Assembly: GCA_021772015.1 (NCBI GenBank) | Contig: JAETNS010000015.1 | Span: 1 to 59,125, forward strand | Length of the DNA: 59,125 bases | From: Prevotellaceae bacterium | GTDB taxonomy: Bacteria > Bacteroidota > Bacteroidia > Bacteroidales > Muribaculaceae | Direction of reading: 5' to 3' | Part shown: positions 1,077-44,557 of the stretch, in pieces | Layout: each line of letters begins with the position of its first letter | Position numbering within the stretch: the stretch's first letter is position 1 | The notes under the pieces: generated by a model | Told to the model about the DNA's origin: nothing | The model's database searches: none | What the model saw: the letters and a program-made list of their open reading frames with translations, nothing else | Position numbers and translations under genes: made by a program

Positions 1077-2600
1077 TTAAATTTTACCATAAACTCCATG
1101 ACGGATTTTCTGAAAGTGAATCCCGGTGAAACGCCTGATGAAATCCTTGAAGGTGCGCTCCGGCATTGAGTTATCGGCGGCAATCTCAACTCCCTGTTCG
1201 GTGGTGAACTCGTCAGGCAGAGCCGACATCACGGCACGTTGCTGTTCCGACAGTGACAAATCCCGGATAATGCCCTGTACCCTTGTGGCGGTGGCTTTGA
1301 AATAATCCACAAGCGATATGGCATTTTCTACTGATACAAGATCTATTTCCGATTTGTCAGACTCTCCACACGCCCACCGCACCATTTGCAGGATAAGGCA
1401 AAAGCGTATGGCATGGAAATCGAATTTATTATATACGCCTTTCAGCGCGTCACATTCCTCCCGGTTACATTCCTCGGTGTTCATGCGCTGCCATTCATAT
1501 AGCCGAACCTTTGCCTCCGGCGCAAACGGCAGGATATTAGCGACAATATTCCCGTCTGTGTCGGTTTCGTATGGCATCGCCACCAATTTACCGATGATGT
1601 CAGCCCATGCCGCCTCGATGTCAAATGACGGTTCCTTGTCGCTCCACGGCTGTTTGTCCTGATTGTCGGGCATAACGAACAGCAGACGGTCGATGAATCC
1701 GTTTGATGTACGGCTCCCTTGTGCCAGTTCATTCAGTATGCCGTTCTGGATTGTTCCTACCACCGAGATAAAAGGGCGGCTGATATATACCGAGTTTTTC
1801 ACGCCCTTGCGGTCGGAGAACGACGGGTTGGCGTTGAACAGTTTTAGCCAGTATTCCTCATCAGAGCCTTTGTTGTAACGGTTGAAATTCTTGAACCACC
1901 CGGCAAGCTCATCGTTCCACATCAGTATGCCCCGCAGGTTCTGCGAGTGGATAAGCAGCATGGCTTCGGGTGTAGCGTCAGAGATAAGGAAGCGTTTGCA
2001 TATTGGCGCGACAGTGTGAGGCTCGCTGCGCTCTTTCATCGGCAGTTCGCGCTGACGCTCATATTCCTCGCAGGCCTTGACATAAGCGCGTGTCGCCTTA
2101 CCGTCCAACTCGGTGAATGGTCGGATTGCGAAATTCAACGGATGCGACTTGCACGCTCCGGGTCTGCCCACAAGAGCCATGAACAGAATCGCGCTCTCAT
2201 CCCATTTACCTTTGAGCCTTGCGAAATGGGTGTTGCCGATGCCAAGCCCGACAGCCACAAGCATAGCCCCGGCGAGATAATCCACCGGATAGCCGTAGCA
2301 GTCGTTGGCCTCGCGTACAATCCTCTGCATCTTCATCGGCAACGCTCCCTTTTCCCCGGGCACTTTATATGCCGGAATCTTGCCCTCTCGCGCAAGATCA
2401 TAGACAGTCGATTTAGCCTTGCCAAGAATCTGACAGGCTTCGGCAATCCCGATAAACTGTGTTGCCGACTTTGGGATAGTTCTCTCCGGAGTGAGCATCT
2501 TGCGAAGCTCGCCCACTTCTTTGACCAACTCCCTGACGAGAGCGGTCAGCGATGACACTGCGCCCGGCAGCTCATCGAATGTTATTGAATTTTGTAACAT
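1077..2600 (-). CDS. DUF3987 protein with N-terminal helix-turn-helix (element replication helicase-like)
   Basis: The reading frame opens at 2639, but the ATG at 2598-2600 (MLQNSITFDELPG) is the better start because the extra codons lie in an inverted repeat. Residues 1-45 are probably coiled coil. Residues about 50-80 form an excisionase-like helix-turn-helix (IGIAEACQILGKAKSTVYDL). The rest is DUF3987, with a P-loop-like VGRPGACKSHP. In relatives I know, the HTH protein and the DUF3987 protein are usually separate adjacent genes. Here the HTH lacks its usual C-terminal strand and runs straight into the DUF3987 start (PMKMQRIVREA), which suggests an in-frame fusion by deletion. It follows the TM-protein gene and precedes the DUF6371 gene. 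The replication or mobilisation role is inferred. Confidence 0.85.
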   Translation of the reverse strand: MLQNSITFDELPGAVSSLTALVRELVKEVGELRKMLTPERTIPKSATQFIGIAEACQILGKAKSTVYDLAREGKIPAYKVPGEKGALPMKMQRIVREANDCYGYPVDYLAGAMLVAVGLGIGNTHFARLKGKWDESAILFMALVGRPGACKSHPLNFAIRPFTELDGKATRAYVKACEEYERQRELPMKERSEPHTVAPICKRFLISDATPEAMLLIHSQNLRGILMWNDELAGWFKNFNRYNKGSDEEYWLKLFNANPSFSDRKGVKNSVYISRPFISVVGTIQNGILNELAQGSRTSNGFIDRLLFVMPDNQDKQPWSDKEPSFDIEAAWADIIGKLVAMPYETDTDGNIVANILPFAPEAKVRLYEWQRMNTEECNREECDALKGVYNKFDFHAIRFCLILQMVRWACGESDKSEIDLVSVENAISLVDYFKATATRVQGIIRDLSLSEQQRAVMSALPDEFTTEQGVEIAADNSMPERTFKDFIRRFTGIHFQKIRHGVYGKI

Positions 2601-2604
2601 AAAA

Positions 2605-2636
2605 CTGGCGAACCCACTTTTGTATGGATTCGCCAG
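2605..2636. repeat. Inverted repeat upstream of the DUF3987 gene
   Basis: CTGGCGAA at 2605-2612 and TTCGCCAG at 2629-2636 form a perfect 8-bp stem with a 16-base loop, directly ahead of the preferred start at 2600. It would sit in the 5' leader of the transcript. A hairpin here could influence translation or be an operator; no function is established. Confidence 0.55.
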
Positions 2637-2646
2637 CAAAGTACGG

Positions 2647-3912: not shown

Positions 3913-5019
3913 TTATTTCAGGGAGATAACATTGGCAGCTGCTCTTTTGCGTTCATCAACGACCTCCGCGTATATTTGTGTGTTCTTGACGCTTTTATGT
4001 GTTAACATCTTGCTGATTGTCAGAATGTCAACGCCATTTGCGGCTAACAGGGTCGCAAAACTGTGGCGCATAGAATGGAACGAGATTCTGCGTGTGATAC
4101 CGGCAGATTTCAGCCATTCTTTGAGCGGATGATTCACCATATGTCGTTTCAATCCCTTGAACACAAGACCTTCGGAGCGTTCACCGCATAGGGCGAGTGT
4201 TTCATCACTGATAGGCAGGTTTGCTTCCTCATCAGTTTTCTCGGTGCATTTGCGGATTACATAGCCTCCGTCTTGCCCCATTTCAATATGCTCCCATGAG
4301 AGTTGAAGAATATCGCTGATTCTCAATCCCGTCATGCAGCTGAACAAGGTAGCGTATTTCAGTACGGGGATTTTGCATGGCGTAGCCATAAGCCGTTTCA
4401 CCTCTTCAAGTGTCAGAAACTCTTTCTTGACCTCGCGCCACTCGATTTTATCAAGGAAGTCGTTGATGTTTTCTCTGAGATATTTCTCCTTGTATGCGAT
4501 TTTGAGCAACGCCCGGAATGTTGACCAATATCCGGCGGCAGAGTTTTGTGTAATCGGGCCTTTGCCATTGTTGCGTTGACGCTGTGCCGAAAGTAGATAT
4601 GTTCGGAACCCGTCGCAGAAATCGGTTGTCAAATCACCGAAACGGCATTTCCCACCGCAATAGATGGAGAAATGGCGATAGACGCAATCCCATTTCTGAT
4701 ATTTCTGGCGACACTTGCTCTTGAAGTAGGCAAGGAAATCCATGCGCTGCTTCTCCTTGTCGAGAAAATCAAATTTCTCGTTGAGCAACTGCTCGAAGCG
4801 GCGACAACGGATAGCCTCTGCCTTTTCTTCCATAGAAGCATTGAACTGGCGTTCACGCTCATTCTTGGGGGAGGCATAGATGTAGATGCCGAGAGTTTCA
4901 CGACGGCTCATGCGGTTTGTATGCGGATTGCGAATCGCAGGGTAGAAATCGAGATAGAGCGAGATACGTCCACCCGATATAGCCTTCTTACGAAGGAAAA
5001 CTTTTGTGCATGTATTCAT
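3913..5019 (-). CDS. Tyrosine recombinase (integrase) of the element
   Basis: A 368-residue phage-type integrase of the Bacteroidota kind. It has an Arm/SAM-like N-terminal part (about 1-110), a core-binding domain (about 110-195) and a catalytic domain. Catalytic residues are visible: R233 in TGLRISDI, H315-x-x-R318 in HSMRHSF, H341 in LTHKS and the nucleophile Y350 in NTQIYAEV, so the enzyme looks intact. It would integrate and excise the element whose edge lies against mnmE. A 21-bp repeat shared with the DUF3987 promoter region lies 37 bases upstream. Downstream (3860-3895 region) is an imperfect ATGCCA..TGGCAT hairpin that may terminate its transcript. Confidence 0.93.
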   Translation of the reverse strand: MNTCTKVFLRKKAISGGRISLYLDFYPAIRNPHTNRMSRRETLGIYIYASPKNERERQFNASMEEKAEAIRCRRFEQLLNEKFDFLDKEKQRMDFLAYFKSKCRQKYQKWDCVYRHFSIYCGGKCRFGDLTTDFCDGFRTYLLSAQRQRNNGKGPITQNSAAGYWSTFRALLKIAYKEKYLRENINDFLDKIEWREVKKEFLTLEEVKRLMATPCKIPVLKYATLFSCMTGLRISDILQLSWEHIEMGQDGGYVIRKCTEKTDEEANLPISDETLALCGERSEGLVFKGLKRHMVNHPLKEWLKSAGITRRISFHSMRHSFATLLAANGVDILTISKMLTHKSVKNTQIYAEVVDERKRAAANVISLK

Positions 5020-5118: not shown

Positions 5119-6021
5119 TTATATCGTGGGTGGAGCAAATAGATTATCAAGTTCTTGCTTGGATATTTTGATGATTCTCCCGACTTTCACTTTCGTTATG
5201 CCGTGTGTCTTGATGTAGTGATATAGTTGGTCGCGCGTCATGTTGAAATGCTCCATAGCTTCCGGCATGGTATAATATTCCGGTTCTTTCGGCTCGGCTA
5301 CGCCTTTGGCAATATCAAAATGACGCTTTGAGTATCGGGCTTCGCAACCGACTTTCTTTTTCGGGATGCCTTCCTTTGACACGAGATTATAGATTGCCGA
5401 TAGCGTCATACCGAACCGCTCCTGAATCTCTGCCACGGTGTACCACTCGGTTATATCCTCTTGCGGTTTCTTCTTGGCAAAGAAACGGTCAATGTGGCTT
5501 TTGCTCCAGAGCGTCTTTCCTCGTTGGATAGTCTTTGGAAAGTTGTTTTCTTTCGCTGCCTTGAAAAGCCACGAATTACTGATGCCGAATTTCTCCAGCA
5601 CCTCTTTGGTGGTGTAAAATTCGGTGATTGGCTGTTTCTTTATTGTCGCAGTTATTCTCTGTTGTTCGGAGATTTCAGTGAATAACGCATCTAAGTCTTT
5701 TCTTCGGATAAGAGTTTTTCGGCATAGACGCCAAACCTTGATAGAGCCATTAGAAATATAGTTGTAAATAGACTTAGTGCATAGCCCCATAAGTTTAGCC
5801 GCTTGTGTCGGTGTCAGAAACTCCTGTTTCTCCAACTCGACTTTACCGGATTCTTGGTATTCGTACTCTCGTTGGTACTCTCCCAAACGCTTTTGGCGTT
5901 TTCTCTCTTTATAGGCGAGGTTGGAGCATCGGTGACTGCAATACTCCGTGGTCGTCTTTCGTGCTGTGAACTCGTTGCCACACCACTTACAGATTTTCTT
6001 GATTTCGATGTTGCTGCTCAT
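5119..6021 (-). CDS. Zinc-finger protein with four tandem helix-turn-helix domains
   Basis: The start chosen is the ATG at 6019-6021 (MSSNIEIKKICKWCG), giving 300 residues; upstream in-frame codons fall inside a tandem repeat. C11, C14, C28 and C32 form a small zinc finger, followed by a basic linker. Then come four excisionase/MerR-like winged HTH units of about 47 residues each, at about 68-114 (FLTPTQAAKLMG), 135-181 (FYTTKEVLEKFG), 192-238 (WYTVAEIQERFG) and 248-294 (YYTMPEAMEHFN). Each starts with the same x-Y/L-T-x-x-E/Q-A/V/I pattern. It lies between the integrase and the mnmE end, the usual place for an excisionase or directionality factor. DNA binding is near certain; the role in excision or autoregulation is inferred. 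Confidence 0.85.
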   Translation of the reverse strand: MSSNIEIKKICKWCGNEFTARKTTTEYCSHRCSNLAYKERKRQKRLGEYQREYEYQESGKVELEKQEFLTPTQAAKLMGLCTKSIYNYISNGSIKVWRLCRKTLIRRKDLDALFTEISEQQRITATIKKQPITEFYTTKEVLEKFGISNSWLFKAAKENNFPKTIQRGKTLWSKSHIDRFFAKKKPQEDITEWYTVAEIQERFGMTLSAIYNLVSKEGIPKKKVGCEARYSKRHFDIAKGVAEPKEPEYYTMPEAMEHFNMTRDQLYHYIKTHGITKVKVGRIIKISKQELDNLFAPPTI

Positions 6022-6050
6022 GTTTATTTCGCTTGTTATTTCGCCAAAAG

Positions 6051-6090
6051 TGTGTATCGGCGTGTATTGGCGTGTATGGGTGTGTAAATC
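6051..6090. repeat. Four tandem 10-bp direct repeats (iteron-like) upstream of the four-HTH gene
   Basis: Reading + strand, TGTGTATCGG, CGTGTATTGG, CGTGTATGGG and TGTGTAAATC follow each other without gaps (6051-6060, 6061-6070, 6071-6080, 6081-6090). The 10-bp period puts each copy on nearly the same face of the helix. The array ends 30 bases before the four-HTH start codon. Confidence 0.75.
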
Positions 6091-6130
6091 CTCCACAATT
6101 TCTCTGCCTCTCTTGGCTGATTATTGGGTT

Positions 6131-6150
6131 GAGATACAACCGAGATACAA
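6131..6150. repeat. Paired 9-bp direct repeat near the element end
   Basis: GAGATACAA occurs at 6131-6139 and 6142-6150, start-to-start spacing 11 bp. It lies between the HTH gene and the mnmE junction, where arm-type integrase sites are normally found. A short hairpin (ATGGCAC 6206-6212 with GTGCCAT 6223-6229) lies between these repeats and mnmE. Confidence 0.5.
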
Positions 6151-6272: not shown

Positions 6273-6290
6273 TCATTTACCGACGCAGAA
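6273..6290. other. Candidate attachment site at the 3' end of mnmE
   Basis: The last codons of mnmE (FCVGK, stop TGA at 6273-6275) mark the junction between core genome and the element. The 3' end of mnmE/trmE/thdF is a known target of tyrosine recombinases (for example the SGI1 family), because its FCxGK coding sequence is conserved. The mnmE frame is intact, as expected when the element regenerates the gene end. The second att copy would lie left of the window, so it cannot be seen. Confidence 0.5.
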
Positions 6291-7778
6291 ACGGGAGAAG
6301 ATGGAGGCGAGGATGTCTGGAGTGGTGAGGGTGCCGGTGATGGAGGAAAGATGGTGGAGGGTGGTGCGGAGATCTTGGGCGATGAGGTCGCCGGGGATGT
6401 TGGCGCGCAGGCCGTCCAGAATGGCGGCCGTTGAGATGGCAGCTTCCTTAAGGGCTTTGGCATGACGCAGATTGGTGACAAGAATCGAGTCCTCATCTGT
6501 AGAACCTTGGAGCTTGAGGGCTATGGATGTCAGAGTTGCGAGAAGCTGTTGATTGCCTTCGCCTGTTTTTGTTGAAAAAGGTATTATGGAGTAAGGCGAG
6601 ACAGCTGCCATGTTATCTGGGAATACGTTGGCCGGGAGTATTTTGGGCAGGTCGGAGGGGGATGGATCTTCCAAGAGATCTGTCTTGTTCAGAAGTAATA
6701 TGAGAGGGGAGGAAGGCGCAACCGAGGCGGTTTCTGCCTCGGGTACACGCTGCTCCTCTTTTGATGTCATATTACAAGCATTTTCCTCTGCGGAGGTTCG
6801 TTTATGTGATGGCATTGTGGTCGCGTCTATGACAGAAATCACGATCGATGCCCGGGAGATTGCCTGGCGTGAACGTTCGATTCCAAGTGTCTCGATCGGA
6901 TCGGAAGTCTCTCGCAGGCCGGCGGTGTCGATGAAACGGAAAAGGAAGTCTCCGATCTCAAGGGTGTCTTCGATCGTGTCACGGGTGGTGCCGTGGATGT
7001 CGGAGACAATAGCCCGGTCTTCACCGAGCAGCAAATTCAGGAGTGATGATTTGCCGGCGTTCGTGGGGCCGACGATAGCCACCGGTATGCCATCCTTTAT
7101 TGCCGCTCCGGAAGCAAAAGATTCTCCGAGCCTTGTAACCTCCTTATGGATTTCACAGGCGATATCACGTAGCCTGGCGCGGGAGGCAAACTCCACATCT
7201 TCCTCCGAAAAATCCAGCTCAAGTTCCAATAGCGACGCGAGGTCAAGCAGTTTTCCGCGCAGTTCCTCCAGCCGACGGGAAAAAGTCCCCTTCATCTGCA
7301 AAGTCGCCAATCTGTGGGCTGCCCGTGAATTCGAGGCTATTACATCAGCCACCCCTTCCGCCTGCGCCAGATCCATCTTTCCGTTTGCGAAAGCTCGCCG
7401 TGTGAATTCTCCCGCTTCCGCCAGGCGCGCTCCAAGGCTCATGAGAATTTCAATCAAACGTCGCTGTACATATCTGGATCCATGGACGGAGATTTCTACG
7501 ACATCTTCTCCTGTGAAAGATGCCGGGGCGCGGAATACCGTGGCTACAGCTTCGTCGAGCATCTCACCGTCACGCATAGGGTCGGTGATCCATCCCACAC
7601 GCGCCGTATAGCCCGGTGTTGAAGACAACTGTTTACCATGCCATATTTTGTCGACGATCGTTATAGCCTCAGGTCCGCTGACGCGTATGACAGCGATTCC
7701 CCCTGTCCCAGGGGCGGTCGATATGGCGCAGATTGTCTCTGTTGAATCTGAAATATAGGTCTGATTGTAGCCTTTCAT
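6273..7778 (-). CDS. mnmE: tRNA uridine-5-carboxymethylaminomethyl modification GTPase MnmE
   Basis: MnmE, with MnmG, modifies U34 of tRNAs reading two-fold degenerate codons. The start at 7776-7778 (MKGYNQTYISDS) matches the family's SDTICAIATAP-type start; the frame is open further upstream but would cross the promoter. The N-terminal formyl-THF binding domain and helical domain are followed by the G domain: G1 GPTNAGKSS, G2 TTRD, G3 DTAG, G4 NKTD. The C-terminus is FCVGK with the conserved cysteine. Odd: about 35 residues rich in S, E and A (TTMPSHKRTSAEEN.. to ..ASVAPSS) are inserted between G3 and G4. The gene is divergent from the MATE exporter and borders the mobile element downstream. 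Confidence 0.96.
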   Translation of the reverse strand: MKGYNQTYISDSTETICAISTAPGTGGIAVIRVSGPEAITIVDKIWHGKQLSSTPGYTARVGWITDPMRDGEMLDEAVATVFRAPASFTGEDVVEISVHGSRYVQRRLIEILMSLGARLAEAGEFTRRAFANGKMDLAQAEGVADVIASNSRAAHRLATLQMKGTFSRRLEELRGKLLDLASLLELELDFSEEDVEFASRARLRDIACEIHKEVTRLGESFASGAAIKDGIPVAIVGPTNAGKSSLLNLLLGEDRAIVSDIHGTTRDTIEDTLEIGDFLFRFIDTAGLRETSDPIETLGIERSRQAISRASIVISVIDATTMPSHKRTSAEENACNMTSKEEQRVPEAETASVAPSSPLILLLNKTDLLEDPSPSDLPKILPANVFPDNMAAVSPYSIIPFSTKTGEGNQQLLATLTSIALKLQGSTDEDSILVTNLRHAKALKEAAISTAAILDGLRANIPGDLIAQDLRTTLHHLSSITGTLTTPDILASIFSRFCVGK

Positions 7779-7782
7779 GTCG

Positions 7783-7822
7783 GCAAAGTTACTGAATTCC
7801 CCGAAAACTTGCGTAACTTTGC
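7783..7822. promoter_or_regulatory. Divergent promoter region whose two -7 boxes form a perfect inverted repeat
   Basis: GCAAAGTTAC (7783-7792) and GTAACTTTGC (7813-7822) are perfect inverted copies; each is a Bacteroidota -7 box (TAACTTTGC) for mnmE (minus) and the MATE gene (plus). Only four bases separate the mnmE box from its ATG, so transcription would start at or near the start codon. No clear -33 TTTG is seen for either direction. Confidence 0.65.
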
Positions 7823-7895
7823 AGTTGAAAAAAGGATCTTTACCGGCCGACAACATATGCCGTCTACCTTGTTTCCCATCTCAATTACAACATCC

Positions 7896-11813: not shown

Positions 11814-12203
11814 TCAATCCTCCCTTGCGAGATCCCTTATTATATCCTCGTCGGCCGGAAGCCAGCGTAGAGTCGGAAGGCTTTTCGCCGGAAGCCAGCG
11901 CGCAGCCTTGTGTTCGATCAACTTAGGATCCGCCCCGGCGGGCAACCCGCAAAGGAAACAATGCAATACAAGATGGAACGAAGGATAGTCGAACTCTCTG
12001 ACACGGAACAGCTCTCCCACGACTATCTCCACGTCAAGTTCCTCTCTGATTTCCCTTCTCAAAGCATCCGCCGGCATCTCTCCCGGTTCTATCTTCCCTC
12101 CGGGAAACTCCCACATCCCTGCGAATTCCCCATAGCTCCTCTGCGTGACGAAATAAAGTCCCTCACGCCTTATTATAGCCGCCACAACCTCAATTGTCTT
12201 CAT
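11814..12203 (-). CDS. Nudix hydrolase (MutT/8-oxo-dGTP or CTP-type pyrophosphohydrolase)
   Basis: 129 residues from the ATG at 12201-12203 (MKTIEVVAAIIRRE); upstream codons of the open frame overlap the previous gene. The Nudix box is complete at residues 36-58 (G-x5-E-x7-REI-x-EE-x-D-V). WEFPGGKIEPGE and the C-terminal WLPADEDII are typical of MutT-like enzymes that sanitise nucleotide pools. It is the last gene of an operon and overlaps the end of the DUF4276 gene by 14 bases, so the two are translated together. That link to an ATPase/DUF4276 pair is unusual for a housekeeping MutT; the exact substrate is unknown. Confidence 0.88.
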   Translation of the reverse strand: MKTIEVVAAIIRREGLYFVTQRSYGEFAGMWEFPGGKIEPGEMPADALRREIREELDVEIVVGELFRVREFDYPSFHLVLHCFLCGLPAGADPKLIEHKAARWLPAKSLPTLRWLPADEDIIRDLARED

Positions 12204-12864
12204 CTGTTTCCTTCCCAATACTCGACAATCGATTATACCATTCAGAGAATAACGGACATTTGTCAAGGATTTTCTTTAATCCGATATCATGTGCCAGGCA
12301 AGCGCCATAGATTACCTTGTTGTACCCGCTTATGGCTTTGAGAAGCCGTTTTGAGGGGGCAAGGTCGGGCCGGCAGTTTATTTCTTCCGGATTCGGGAAA
12401 TCCGTTACAGCAGCTTCGAGCAGATACATCGTGGCCTCATTGTCATCAAAGTTTTGTGAGATTACATTGATATCGCTGAAAATCAGACTTTCGAACTCGT
12501 GTAGCTGGATATATGGAATGAAGCGCTCACGGATATCCGGAGGCATCTCATCTTCCATTTTCCTGAAGAGGAAATGCATGCGGGACCTTTTGTCGGGGAT
12601 CGCTTTGCTCTCCTCCCATCCCGGAAAGCCGAAACTGTCTTTTATCCCGTAATAATCTATAAGCAATGTGACGTAAGCGTCAGACTCATGGAGATGCATC
12701 ATGAGTTGCCGTTTTATAGGGTCCCATGCGACTATTCCGCCCTGCGATCTTTTGATCAAAGGAGCCTCGACACATATGTCTGACCTATAGAGAGCCGGTG
12801 CTATCACATCCATGCAGAATTCATGTTCGGTCGGTCCCTCGCATACTATTATCAGACGGGTCAT
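12190..12864 (-). CDS. DUF4276 protein (TOPRIM-like partner of AAA ATPase)
   Basis: 224 residues from the ATG at 12862-12864, which overlaps the ATPase stop codon in an ATGA arrangement, showing tight translational coupling. The start LIIVCEGPTEHEF carries the EGxTE motif (E9), then VTLLIDYYGIKDSFG (D70) and YIQLHEFESLIFSD, all DUF4276 hallmarks that resemble the acidic residues of TOPRIM nucleases. DUF4276 proteins are typically paired with an AAA ATPase; analogous ATPase plus TOPRIM pairs (OLD, Gabija, PARIS) abort phage infection. Nuclease or RNase activity and a defence role are inference, not shown by sequence alone. Confidence 0.85.
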   Translation of the reverse strand: MTRLIIVCEGPTEHEFCMDVIAPALYRSDICVEAPLIKRSQGGIVAWDPIKRQLMMHLHESDAYVTLLIDYYGIKDSFGFPGWEESKAIPDKRSRMHFLFRKMEDEMPPDIRERFIPYIQLHEFESLIFSDINVISQNFDDNEATMYLLEAAVTDFPNPEEINCRPDLAPSKRLLKAISGYNKVIYGACLAHDIGLKKILDKCPLFSEWYNRLSSIGKETDEDN

Positions 12865-13940
12865 CCCGGTTGCCCTCCCTTCACTATCTTTTGTTTCCAT
12901 AAATCCCCGATGGTATATTCCTCCAGCCACTTTTCAAGTGACGTTCCATCAAGACGTTTGATAGTCGTGTGCCCTTCACGTTGGTCGACCGTCAATATAT
13001 CCTCCGGCGAAAAATTGCTTATCAGTTCTGCGCTCTGTGTGGCGGCGATTATCTGTGCGCCACGGTCGGCTGCCAGTTTGATCAATCCGGCCAGTTTCTC
13101 TATGGCCACAGGATGCAGCCCCAATTCCGGCTCGTCAATTATGATGATCTTAGGCAATCTCGGCTGCAGGAACAAGACAGCTAACGCGATAAAACGTATC
13201 GTCCCGTCTGAAAGATCTGTAGGCCCATATATCATGTCACTGAACTTGTCCTGCCATTGCAGCCTGATTTTGCCGGCTTCGGTAGGTTCGAGATAGAAAT
13301 CGTTGAAAAACGGCGCGACGCTGTTGATCACCCTTACGATCCGTTTATATGCCATCGGGTGTTCTTCCCGAATTCTGTATAGGATGGCTGCCAGGTTATC
13401 GCCATTGGCATACATACGGTAAGAATCGTTGCGTATGTCAGAGTCGCTTGTGAAAGGCGATTTCCGTCCCGTGTCATGGAAATGAAACTTGCGTATCTGC
13501 GAGATGTAATCCCTGATGTAATCTCCACGTCTCATCCCTGAATATGATTTCAGGGAGGTTTCAGGTGAAAATTCGCTGATGGTGGTGAATGACCAGTTCA
13601 AATGATATCTGGGATTGTAATTGTAGCCGAGTCTTTCATTTTCGACCACAAGTTTGCCGTCTGACTCTATTAACGACAAAACATATGAGTTCTTCCCTTC
13701 GACCACGCAAATTTCAATCCGCTCGGTCTCTTTCCTGCCCTGATGAAGCAACTTGTCGACACCTCCAGCCTGAACTACGCTCTGGGCCAACCGCCCGTCG
13801 TATATGTTTCCCAACAGTTCAAACAATGAGAGAAAGTTGCTTTTGCCCGACCCGTTGGATCCTATCAGCAGGTTTATTTTTCTTAGATATACTTTCTGTT
13901 CTTTGAACGACTTGTATCCCTGTATCTTTATGTAGTCCAT
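12861..13940 (-). CDS. AAA ATPase (AAA_21/OLD-like) of ATPase-DUF4276 pair
   Basis: 359 residues with an ABC/SMC-like ATPase fold: Walker A GSNGSGKSN (27-35), signature LSDGT (243-247), Walker B IIIIDEPELGLHP (265-277) and ATQS switch region (300-303). The start MDYIKIQGYKSFKEQKVYLRK is typical of RecF/OLD-like ATPases found in defence systems. It is the first gene of the ATPase-DUF4276-Nudix operon, just downstream of tRNA-Leu in the same direction. CAGGGT (13974-13979) and ACCCTG (13987-13992) form a small dyad before the gene that could be an operator. Likely a sensor or motor for the DUF4276 effector. Confidence 0.9.
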   Translation of the reverse strand: MDYIKIQGYKSFKEQKVYLRKINLLIGSNGSGKSNFLSLFELLGNIYDGRLAQSVVQAGGVDKLLHQGRKETERIEICVVEGKNSYVLSLIESDGKLVVENERLGYNYNPRYHLNWSFTTISEFSPETSLKSYSGMRRGDYIRDYISQIRKFHFHDTGRKSPFTSDSDIRNDSYRMYANGDNLAAILYRIREEHPMAYKRIVRVINSVAPFFNDFYLEPTEAGKIRLQWQDKFSDMIYGPTDLSDGTIRFIALAVLFLQPRLPKIIIIDEPELGLHPVAIEKLAGLIKLAADRGAQIIAATQSAELISNFSPEDILTVDQREGHTTIKRLDGTSLEKWLEEYTIGDLWKQKIVKGGQPG

Positions 13941-43236: not shown

Positions 43237-44538
43237 TTATCGTAGCCGTAGATAGGAATAGCCGAAACGCTCGGCGGCTGCGCGGTCAAGCTCATCGCGG
43301 AATGCGGGATCGGCGATGGAGATCAACAGCTTGGCGCGTTCGGGCAATGATTTGCCCCGTAGGTTCACAGCCCCGTGTTCGGTGACTATATAGTTTGTCT
43401 GGAAACGGGTAGTCACTACTCCCGCGCCGGGTGTCAGTACCGGCTTGATTTTCGAGATCCCTTTGGTAGAGGATGTCATGGCCAGGAAGGAGAGTCCTCC
43501 CTCGCTGCGCGATGCGCCATAGACGAAGTCATGCTGTCCGCCGACCCCCGAGAAAAGACGTTGGCCGATCGAGTCGGCGCAGATCTGCCCGGTGAGGTCG
43601 ATCTCCAGGCATGAGTTGATTGACATCACCTTGGGGTTCTGGGATATGATAAACGGGTCGTTGGTCCATGCCACATCCTTGAAGATCATATCCTCGTTAT
43701 AGTCCATGAGGTCATACAGGCGGCGCGATCCGAGCGCGAGGCAGGCGACGGATTTCCCCGGATAGACTTTCTTCATGGAGTTGTCAATTATCCCTTTCTC
43801 GATCAGGGGCAACACCCCGTCGGTCATGGCTTCTGTGTGAAGGCCGAGATGTTTATGGTCGGCGAGAGCCCTGATGACGGCGTTGGGGATGCCTCCGACA
43901 CCGATCTGCAACGTGGCTCCGTCAGGGATGATTTCGGCGATGGCATTGCCTATCGCGGTCTCTTTCTCCCCTGGAATGGCTGTAGGAACCTCCACCAACG
44001 GGTCATCGACTTCGACGGCCGCGTCGATCCGGGAGACATGTATCACCGGGTCGCCGTAAGAGAAGGGCATGTGGGGATTGATCTGGGCGATCACGACGCG
44101 GGCGCATTCAGTGGCGGAAGTGGCAAGGTCTGCCGAAACGCCGTAGCTGACATATCCCTCTTCATTGGGGCGCGAACAGTTGAGCAGCACCACATCGACC
44201 GGCCATGTGCCGTCACGGAAAAGTGCGGGCACTTGACCGAGAAACCGGGGAGTTGTCGCACCGTATCCGTCGTTGATCCATTTGCGGACATTGTTGGAAA
44301 CAAAGCAGGTGTCGACCAGAAAGGAGTCCTTGTATTCCGGTTTACAGTATGGAGCTTCCCGGTCTGCGACTGAGAATCCGGAATATAACACCACCCCGCG
44401 CAATTCATTTCCCCTCCGGGTCATCGCCGCCACCAATGTCTCCGGGATCGAAGTAGACCCCTGTATATAAATATGGTCGCCGCTCTTTATCAGCTTCACC
44501 GCTTCCTCTGCAGAACGCAGTTTCAATTCATAATTCAT
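43237..44538 (-). CDS. Acetyl-CoA hydrolase/transferase family (class I CoA-transferase, 4-hydroxybutyrate CoA-transferase-like)
   Basis: 433 residues in two Rossmann-like CoA-transferase domains. The catalytic glutamate is E236 in LHTEAMTDG, equivalent to that of 4-hydroxybutyrate CoA-transferase; IGVGGIPNAV binds CoA. It exchanges CoA between an acyl-CoA and acetate. As the last gene after iorA-iorB-aminotransferase, aryl-acetyl-CoA is the likely donor, producing aryl-acetate plus acetyl-CoA. The first five codons (MNYEL) are formed by an ATGAATT heptamer repeat, so the present start codon comes from an inserted repeat. Confidence 0.88.
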   Translation of the reverse strand: MNYELKLRSAEEAVKLIKSGDHIYIQGSTSIPETLVAAMTRRGNELRGVVLYSGFSVADREAPYCKPEYKDSFLVDTCFVSNNVRKWINDGYGATTPRFLGQVPALFRDGTWPVDVVLLNCSRPNEEGYVSYGVSADLATSATECARVVIAQINPHMPFSYGDPVIHVSRIDAAVEVDDPLVEVPTAIPGEKETAIGNAIAEIIPDGATLQIGVGGIPNAVIRALADHKHLGLHTEAMTDGVLPLIEKGIIDNSMKKVYPGKSVACLALGSRRLYDLMDYNEDMIFKDVAWTNDPFIISQNPKVMSINSCLEIDLTGQICADSIGQRLFSGVGGQHDFVYGASRSEGGLSFLAMTSSTKGISKIKPVLTPGAGVVTTRFQTNYIVTEHGAVNLRGKSLPERAKLLISIADPAFRDELDRAAAERFGYSYLRLR

Positions 44539-44557
44539 AATTCATAATTCATAATTA
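44525..44557. repeat. Left heptamer repeat array of the four-helix-bundle cassette
   Basis: Four tandem AATTCAT copies (44525, 44532, 44539, 44546) followed by AATTA. In the minus direction they read ATGAATT and supply the start codon of the CoA-transferase at 44536-44538. The inverted counterpart lies at 45005-45022. Confidence 0.75.

Follow-up and report, generated by a model that had tools for sequence, protein, structure and literature searches.

We found that a protein carrying a zinc finger and four winged HTH (wHTH) domains, encoded beside a tyrosine integrase, is probably a recombination directionality factor (RDF) resembling Xis, Cox and Apl, whose first wHTH domain (HTH1) reads an array of 10-bp units near an attachment core in mnmE, HTH1 and the array together forming a specificity cassette that can be exchanged between elements. 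The case is made at the level of sequence, by the array itself, its covariation with HTH1, the out-of-sample prediction of its letters and its position relative to the core.

The window, by which we mean the whole stretch of 59,125 nucleotides analysed, starts where the contig starts, so that the far end of the element is missing from it. Going inwards from the mnmE stop on the minus strand, one meets the core, a terminator-like hairpin (6229-6206), a TTGTATC pair, the four array units, the multi-HTH gene, the integrase, an unknown protein and a DUF3987 protein (Table 1), and the best reading of this arrangement is a candidate integrative mobilizable element inserted in the 3' end of mnmE. The array units, TACACACCCA TACACGCCAA TACACGCCGA TACACACTTT, are contiguous from 6086 to 6047 on this strand and end 25 bases ahead of the ATG at 6021; an alternative GTG start at 6096 would place the array within the ORF. 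The first-pass annotation had correctly noticed an uninterrupted array of four 10-bp repeats ahead of the start codon, and had overstated the intervening gap as 30 bases. Tandem Repeats Finder reports period 10 over 6052-6086, and the array attains 23 of 30 possible matches at lag 10, whereas 5000 dinucleotide-shuffled versions of the 150-bp region never exceeded 19. No further occurrence of the three-unit pattern, with at most two mismatches, was detected in the 59-kb window. Elsewhere in the window, inspection by eye revealed an ATPase-like ORF followed by a 246-aa ORF (12190-13940), possibly an OLD-like two-gene pair, and there is a perfect 7-bp repeat, AATTCAT, in 4.6 copies (44525-44556).

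Table 1. Positions in the window of the candidate element, its attachment site and the domains of the multi-HTH protein
Feature	Position	Strand	Basis
mnmE ORF	6273-7856	-	named by eye from translation
Attachment core TGCGTCGGTAAATGA at 3' end of mnmE	6273..6287	-	tandem elements have the same core type
TTGTATC...TTGTATC pair (starts 6150 and 6139, 11 bp apart), candidate integrase arm sites	6133..6150	-	distances to the array and recurrence in homologues
Array of four 10-bp units xyzACRnnnn, xyz = TAC	6047..6086	-	repeat finding, shuffles, window scan
Candidate RDF P0001, zinc finger and four wHTHs, 300 aa	5119..6021 (including stop codon)	-	family matches, AlphaFold2, homologues
Cys4 zinc finger, C11/C14/C28/C32	5926..5991	-	invariant in 34 aligned proteins
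HTH1, residues 67-115, candidate array-reading domain	5677..5823	-	covariation, prediction
HTH1 recognition helix, residues 82-90, specificity residues K83 and N87	5752..5778	-	AlphaFold2 helix; top covarying columns
HTH2, residues 135-183, array correlation absent	5473..5619	-	AlphaFold2 and covariation
HTH3, residues 193-238, array correlation absent	5308..5445	-	AlphaFold2 and covariation
HTH4, residues 249-294, array correlation absent	5140..5277	-	AlphaFold2 and covariation
Tyrosine integrase: Arm-DNA-bind_5, SAM_5 and catalytic domains	3913..5019	-	domain search
Uncharacterised element protein, 354 aa	2710..3774	-	no significant family match
DUF3987 protein with HTH_17 domain, element gene	1077..2639	-	domain search

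The domain architecture noticed earlier, four HTH units behind a zinc finger, holds: Pfam HTH_17 matches four stretches of the protein and NCBIfam 'excise' (TIGR01764) three, and the AlphaFold2 model (mean pLDDT 75) contains, besides the Cys4 finger, four E-H-H-E-E-H winged domains (~67-113, 135-183, 193-238 and 249-294) of ~48 residues each, spaced 55-70 apart. In HTH1 the model assigns residues 82-90 to the recognition helix and 96-99 to a wing strand. In Foldseek searches with the whole model the top rows were multi-wHTH proteins of ribosome-bound E3 ligases at very low TM, and only rows matching single domains are meaningful. By sequence, the nearest solved relative of HTH1 is the Xis of mycobacteriophage Pukovnik (Gp37, PDB 4j2n), which its profile matches with E 1.2e-11 and to which a single-domain fold match was also found (TMt 0.81, 33% identity).

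Of 99 related genomes 34 contained matches, as did 109 of the 397 searched in the family and 73 of the 393 in the order, these sets being overlapping and searched with different E-value limits; searches of viral contigs yielded few relatives, two of them none. The 162 loci gave 157 rows after removal of the window itself (L031), a locus with a missing N-terminus (L104) and three for which a row was not formed (L037, L038, L039), and these reduce to 113 distinct combinations of upstream region and N-terminus, 101 of which, with an array score of at least 18 and a protein of at least 118 aa, make up the HTH1 table. Among lags of 6-20, self-similarity was best at 10 in 98 of the 113 distinct upstream regions and at 20 in 10, and the floor p of 0.005 was reached in 99; the array is therefore a conserved feature, and the helical-turn spacing proposed in the first-pass annotation extends to the homologues. 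The letters xyz vary from element to element and include TAC, TAG, TGC, TTT, GGT, CGG, GAG, GGG, GAC, TTG, TTC, TAT and AAT, among others. Across 36 diverged representatives, whose core-to-array DNA is less than 70% identical, the distance from array to ATG ranges from 35 to 122 bp, which argues that the array is kept as DNA and not as peptide. An integrase follows in 90 of the 101 distinct complete homologues, and nine of the remaining 11 have fewer than 140 bases left after the ORF. In one homologue (L133, genome G259) no array was found, and its upstream DNA carries CCTAAT-type short repeats; four others (L151, L162, L027, L137) have, as judged by eye, more than one array copy or part copy, as blocks of similar units with spacers. 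Conserved motifs, AGGTNGTGGA and GGCGAAATAAC, flank the arrays. A AGGTNGTGGA-like box (GTGGA in the window, within 6087-6110) lies ~10-11 bp before the first unit in the window and in homologues and accompanies differing array types, making it a possible site for HTH2-4. Motifs of the form GCGAAATAA or TTAACAGAA recur between array and start codon (6022-6046 in the window), often in two copies.

A core of the mnmE type lies upstream of 132 of 144 arrays, usually ~200 bp away. In the 36 representatives this distance is 199-203 bp in 17, 174-220 bp in 16 others, and 256, 257 and 336 bp in the remaining three; the distances are clustered, but a Rayleigh test does not single out 10.5 bp. The TTGTATC pair of the window stands 64 and 53 bp before the array, and a permissive search found TTGTAYC-like motifs at ~64 and ~53 bp in 16 of the 36 representatives, and one of the two in 11 more, and we take the pair as likely integrase arm sites. 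At the far ends of five tandem neighbours there is a TGTAC site ~46-49 bp from the core, with GGTACA at ~155 bp in three of them. The presumed arm sites stand between the core and the array, an arrangement that speaks against the RDF reading; in lambda, the Xis sites lie between arm and core. Three features expected of a wHTH RDF are present: a winged HTH related to excisionases, direct repeats at helical-turn spacing in the attachment region and a gene beside a tyrosine integrase. We favour an RDF because HTH1 is closest in sequence, among solved proteins, to an excisionase (4j2n; compare TIGR01764) and such RDFs bind tandem sites. The earlier suggestion of an excision complex or autoregulation at the element end survives, through the near-fixed distance between core and array and the grouping of HTH1 with phage Xis, once its single-polypeptide form is set aside.

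It is also conceivable, although we consider it unlikely, that HTH1 and the array are a transcriptional autorepressor and its operator only, excision being performed by something else and the proximity to the attachment site being incidental to the place of the operon. Such a pair would account for the array in the leader just ahead of the start codon and for the 53- and 64-bp spacings to TTTTTGTA-like motifs, which could be promoter spacings (a sigma-70-type promoter scan was uninformative), and BldC, the nearest DNA-bound structure, is a transcription regulator. However, the array keeps a tighter distance from the core (sd 10.1 over the 33 representatives at 165-225 bp) than from the ATG (sd 16.0 over all 36), the closest sequence relative is a phage Xis, and RDFs such as Apl can do both jobs (PMC7498355).

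When mutual information was computed without a prior on 69 four-HTH proteins, residue 87 came out top for x (0.79) and residue 83 for both z (0.77) and y (0.60), with wing residue 97 falling between them in the summed ranking; the summed score of residue 83 was 1.72, against 0.67 for the best integrase column (54 proteins with integrase). On an integrase tree of 74 taxa the triplet changed 43 times: 33 of these changes coincide with changes of residue 83 (p 1e-18), and 25 of 26 changes of residue 87 fall on triplet-change branches (p 1.4e-15). These residues are the two best of all columns, and nothing comparable was seen on that tree in the integrase (best column p 1.9e-3) or in HTH2-4 (best column 1.1e-3). 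Other columns of HTH1, the linker (E64, p 8e-14) and the zinc finger (E26, p 6e-7) correlate with the triplet too; part of the signal is therefore block exchange, as is expected of a block that moves as a module.

Such exchange can be followed in closely related proteins. Where HTH2-4 are at least 90% identical (196 pairs), all 133 pairs that differ at 83/87 also differ in triplet, and 57 of the 63 with equal residues have equal triplets. For pairs at 75-90% identity the corresponding numbers are 86 of 94 and 34 of 40, the exceptions being eight pairs that have a triplet in common despite different residues and six that differ in triplet despite equal ones. In a natural swap, three loci (L010, L012, L013) have integrases and HTH2-4 each 96-98% identical, while their HTH1 domains are 35-67% identical and their arrays are GGT, CGG and TTG, respectively. 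Likewise, L103 and L009 are 96% identical in the DNA before the array, nearly identical in the zinc-finger stretch that separates array and HTH1, and 86% identical behind HTH1, the array and HTH1 (57% in its block) being strongly diverged; almost the only array letters retained are ACGT, ACGT, ACGC and AC, one per 10 bp. The best reading of these comparisons is that HTH1 and array move jointly, as an exchangeable cassette, among elements whose integrase, core and HTH2-4 are nearly the same. Although integrase arm sites are often short direct repeats and this integrase has an arm-binding domain, the idea that the array is a set of arm-type sites retains very little probability and we discard it: the array does not follow the integrase arm domain, whose residues 1-90 are 99-100% identical in the three swapped loci despite wholly different arrays, no integrase column follows the triplet well, and a separate repeat pair (16 of 36, one copy in 11 more) occupies a fixed place, with TGTAC at the far end.

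The first-pass annotation had gone on to propose a matched n-domain/n-repeat code, a single polypeptide placing one HTH on each of the four repeats, and had suggested counting repeats upstream of homologues with 3, 4 or 5 HTH units. We made such a count, scoring a unit when four of the five letters of xyzAC match and setting HTH classes by length (Pfam counts were made for ten proteins, and some longer proteins give only one or two Pfam stretches). Four units accompany 75 of 85 proteins of the 4-HTH length class, and the window has four of both. The number of units is nevertheless not tied to the number of HTHs: the eleven complete 1-HTH proteins (116-122 aa; in seven other rows of this class the ORF is truncated by a contig end or an early stop) have 2, 3, 3, 3, 4, 5, 5, 5, 6, 6 and 7 units, four complete 2-HTH proteins have 3, 4, 5 and 5, complete proteins of 240-275 aa have 4-5 units in 12 of 20 cases, and three proteins of 515-548 aa, a class defined by length alone, have 4, 5 and 5. 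Moreover, HTH2-4 differ from HTH1, show no covariation with the array and stay conserved while all four units change together. These counts contradict the code, and we attach almost no likelihood to one domain per repeat within a polypeptide; judging from the sequences, every unit appears to be read by HTH1, probably with several copies of the protein in a row.

The relation between residues and letters can be put as a simple rule for the unit xyzACRnnnn: x is G if and only if residue 87 is Arg, and z is C if and only if residue 83 is Arg or Lys. A tally was made by unit in a set dereplicated at 80% HTH1 identity, so that each array enters four times and the counts are not independent. Of 124 units paired with Arg87, 106 have x=G; the four units with Asp87, all from one array, have C, and under other residues x is mostly T. 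At the third letter, z=C accompanies Arg83 in 62 of 76 units and Lys83 in 16 of 20, and z=T accompanies Met83 in 16 of 16; with Ala83, y is A in 36 of 36 and z is G in 30 of 36. In the 106 units that combine Arg87 with x=G, the preceding base is most often T (82), less often A (16) or C (6), and twice G. On the training loci, with L019 included, the x half of the rule is correct in 96 of 101 and the z half in 98 of 101 (47 of 50 each after dereplication). Given its K83 and N87, only half of the Arg/Lys code applies to the window protein.

The rule was recorded before the order-level data, and the loci used to validate it are mostly from other families: 72 were new, 67 from order-level genomes and five from viral contigs fetched just before the recording, and 62 of them were non-duplicate and usable. 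Of these, 38 reached a score of 18; among the 24 without an array at this cut-off, 13 are proteins of 181-192 aa and four have TTG-type arrays at score 17. With a blind register each half of the rule was correct in 34 of the 38 new arrays, in 22 of 24 dereplicated HTH1s less than 80% identical to the training set, and in 18 of 19 less than 70% identical to it (p 1.2e-4 and 1.3e-3). The finer clause that residues other than Arg87 go with T held in 17 of 19 cases, the exceptions, L203 and L231, having A. A predictor with hand-set weights of 3:1:3 for residues 83, 84 and 87, from whose training L019 was excluded, gave the exact triplet in 13 of 24 cases (shuffled mean 1.24, maximum 6 in 500).

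The failures in the blind register are L236, L240, L245 and L249 for the x half and L231, L236, L240 and L249 for the z half; L236, L240 and L249 would, post hoc, fit another register, and a few one-HTH arrays are off-rule in the blind register. A two-HTH subfamily of ~185 aa (L025, L030, L238, L245; class 181-192 aa) has 10-bp CTTATNNNNN-like CTTAT units and disobeys the rule; its units are perhaps read on the other strand. In L019, at a contig end of G013, a GAT/GGT array is paired against the rule with a TTG-type HTH1, and this locus may be a natural recombinant, a non-functional pair or an assembly chimera. Further afield, a weak comparison made post hoc with phages SWU1 (L256) and Jaan (L255) shows Lys and Asn in their Xis proteins where HTH1 has residues 83 and 87. 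Ahead of the integrase, TNC triplets, as the rule would predict for a Lys83/Asn87 Xis, recur at 10-bp steps: SWU1 has four against an expectation of 0.017, and Jaan three against 0.176. Strand and pattern were chosen after looking, and an earlier scan that demanded AC as well found nothing.

The covariation might in principle arise through hitch-hiking, the neighbouring array and HTH1 moving together by recombination without contact, and some swaps do replace one continuous tract from the array through HTH1 (L112/L109); zinc-finger, linker and other HTH1 columns are correlated as well. Yet the signal peaks at residues 83 and 87 on the tree, the SRATxYR helix recurs with GAG in unrelated backgrounds (L003, L058, L113, L137, L151), and the rule predicts new divergent HTH1s and matches the contacts of BldC. 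The recurrent helix letters, the swaps and the predictions speak against linkage as the sole cause, and we regard the hypothesis as highly improbable.

Returning to an RDF that reads the array through HTH1, its mode of action may be envisaged from what is known of its relatives, since wHTH RDFs are described as cooperative, head-to-tail binders of tandem sites spaced by one turn, which can regulate promoters too (PMC7498355; PMC11963761). Binding, oligomerisation into a filament, a role in excision and autoregulation are what we infer. HTH1 would read each 10-bp unit, an Arg at 87 reading x=G in a TpG step (other residues going mostly with T, and Asp with C in one cluster) and an Arg or Lys at 83 reading the G opposite z=C. 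The array, on which about four protomers would line up head to tail at one per helical turn, lies ~200 bp from the crossover core and is separated by 53-64 bp from the likely arm sites of the integrase. The resulting nucleoprotein might steer the integrase towards excision and would probably also regulate the rdf-int operon that starts just downstream of the array, with HTH2-4 and the zinc finger presumably serving a common task, be it other DNA contacts, contact with the integrase or assembly.

Several of these elements occur in tandem at mnmE, with joints that were judged from shared cores: those in G008, G259, G124 and G139 each have their own array, and G141 has a tandem with a degraded second copy. 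In five multi-element regions, a search for array-like copies of two triplets each returned none besides the known arrays. The complete neighbour element in G008 (L163-L164), with ~20.3 kb between its two cores, encodes an integrase, a MobA-type relaxase, a DUF3987 protein, a type III R-M system, a KAP NTPase, TatD and Fic. We suggest tentatively, at rather less than even confidence, that tandem mnmE elements with near-identical integrases and cores carry HTH1 and array as 'address cassettes', each element being excised and regulated only by its own RDF, and that the two-residue/base code predicts sites across the order and perhaps for actinobacterial Xis too. If each RDF acts on its own array only, this would explain how tandem elements with one integrase type and core come under separate control, which is plausible; equal triplets are not under-represented among co-resident elements, where 42 pairs include 4 such cases and 2.94 would be expected (P(<=obs) 0.84; 20 hand-listed genomes and loci with an array score of at least 18). 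Excisionases of the wHTH type have been described as low-specificity or motif-poor cooperative binders (PMC7498355; PMC11963761). With dozens of natural pairs of protein and array, and two residues that predict DNA letters, the question of specificity can be put to natural alleles, and the code would allow excision sites to be annotated from protein sequence alone.

The mode of binding is already known from Xis, Apl and BldC; what appears to be new is its natural and predictable diversification, on which, as on these elements, our literature search, covering the best-ranked matches in mostly open-access papers, found nothing. Pukovnik Xis is counted among the RDFs that bind tandem sites head to tail (PMC7498355), but is one small wHTH without a zinc finger or HTH2-4, and the search found no specificity code for it. 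Phage 186 Apl, lambda Xis and P2 Cox share with the present system direct-repeat sites one helix turn apart (10-11 bp for Apl) at attachment sites and promoters, and strong cooperativity. In the account of Apl, low sequence specificity of the monomer is stressed (PMC7498355); the triplets of the present arrays, by contrast, are strongly specified and diversified. Likewise an element-borne wHTH RDF encoded beside an integrase, RdfS of ICEMlSymR7A binds with one protomer per 10 bp and four per 40-bp attP site; a consensus motif was not found for it (PMC11963761), in contrast to the explicit motif of each element here. In a study of MerR-family sites, recognition-helix residues 1, 2 and 6 covary with site bases (PMC5045206); in helix 82-90, residues 83 and 87 occupy the second and sixth positions. 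That study deals with operators of dimeric metal regulators rather than tandem arrays of mobile-element RDFs.

A further comparison is with BldC of Streptomyces, a MerR-like wHTH of 68 residues that binds head to tail on direct repeats with major-groove contacts by Arg30 and Lys26 (PMC5859096). The profile match of HTH1 to BldC is weak (positions 4-34 to 15-45 of a 71-residue chain and 16-46 of a 72-residue chain, E 1.1 and 1.3), while the fold match is clear (PDB 6ama/6amk, TMt 0.72-0.79). The chain lengths imply tags of three and four residues, and by this inferred numbering 83 corresponds to Lys26 and 87 to Arg30, so that base-contacting Arg/Lys at recognition-helix positions 6 and 2, with matching bases, is common to both. 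Arg30 holds G2' and G11', each with a T on its 5' side, in a pyrimidine-G step, and Lys26 is near the guanines of base pairs 7, 8 and 17 in a contact called flexible (PMC5859096). On the Arg30 strand the crystal site reads T-GTC-CGAATT, in which the base held by Arg30 is x=G, and the partners of z=C are G8/G17, the guanines close to Lys26; crystal contacts and covariation thus point to the same two base pairs. BldC differs in being a single wHTH and a pleiotropic host regulator, with 9-bp repeats in the crystal and, as far as its published description goes, without a co-changing partner array; with its zinc finger and four wHTHs, the protein described here is therefore better said to work like a BldC than to be one.
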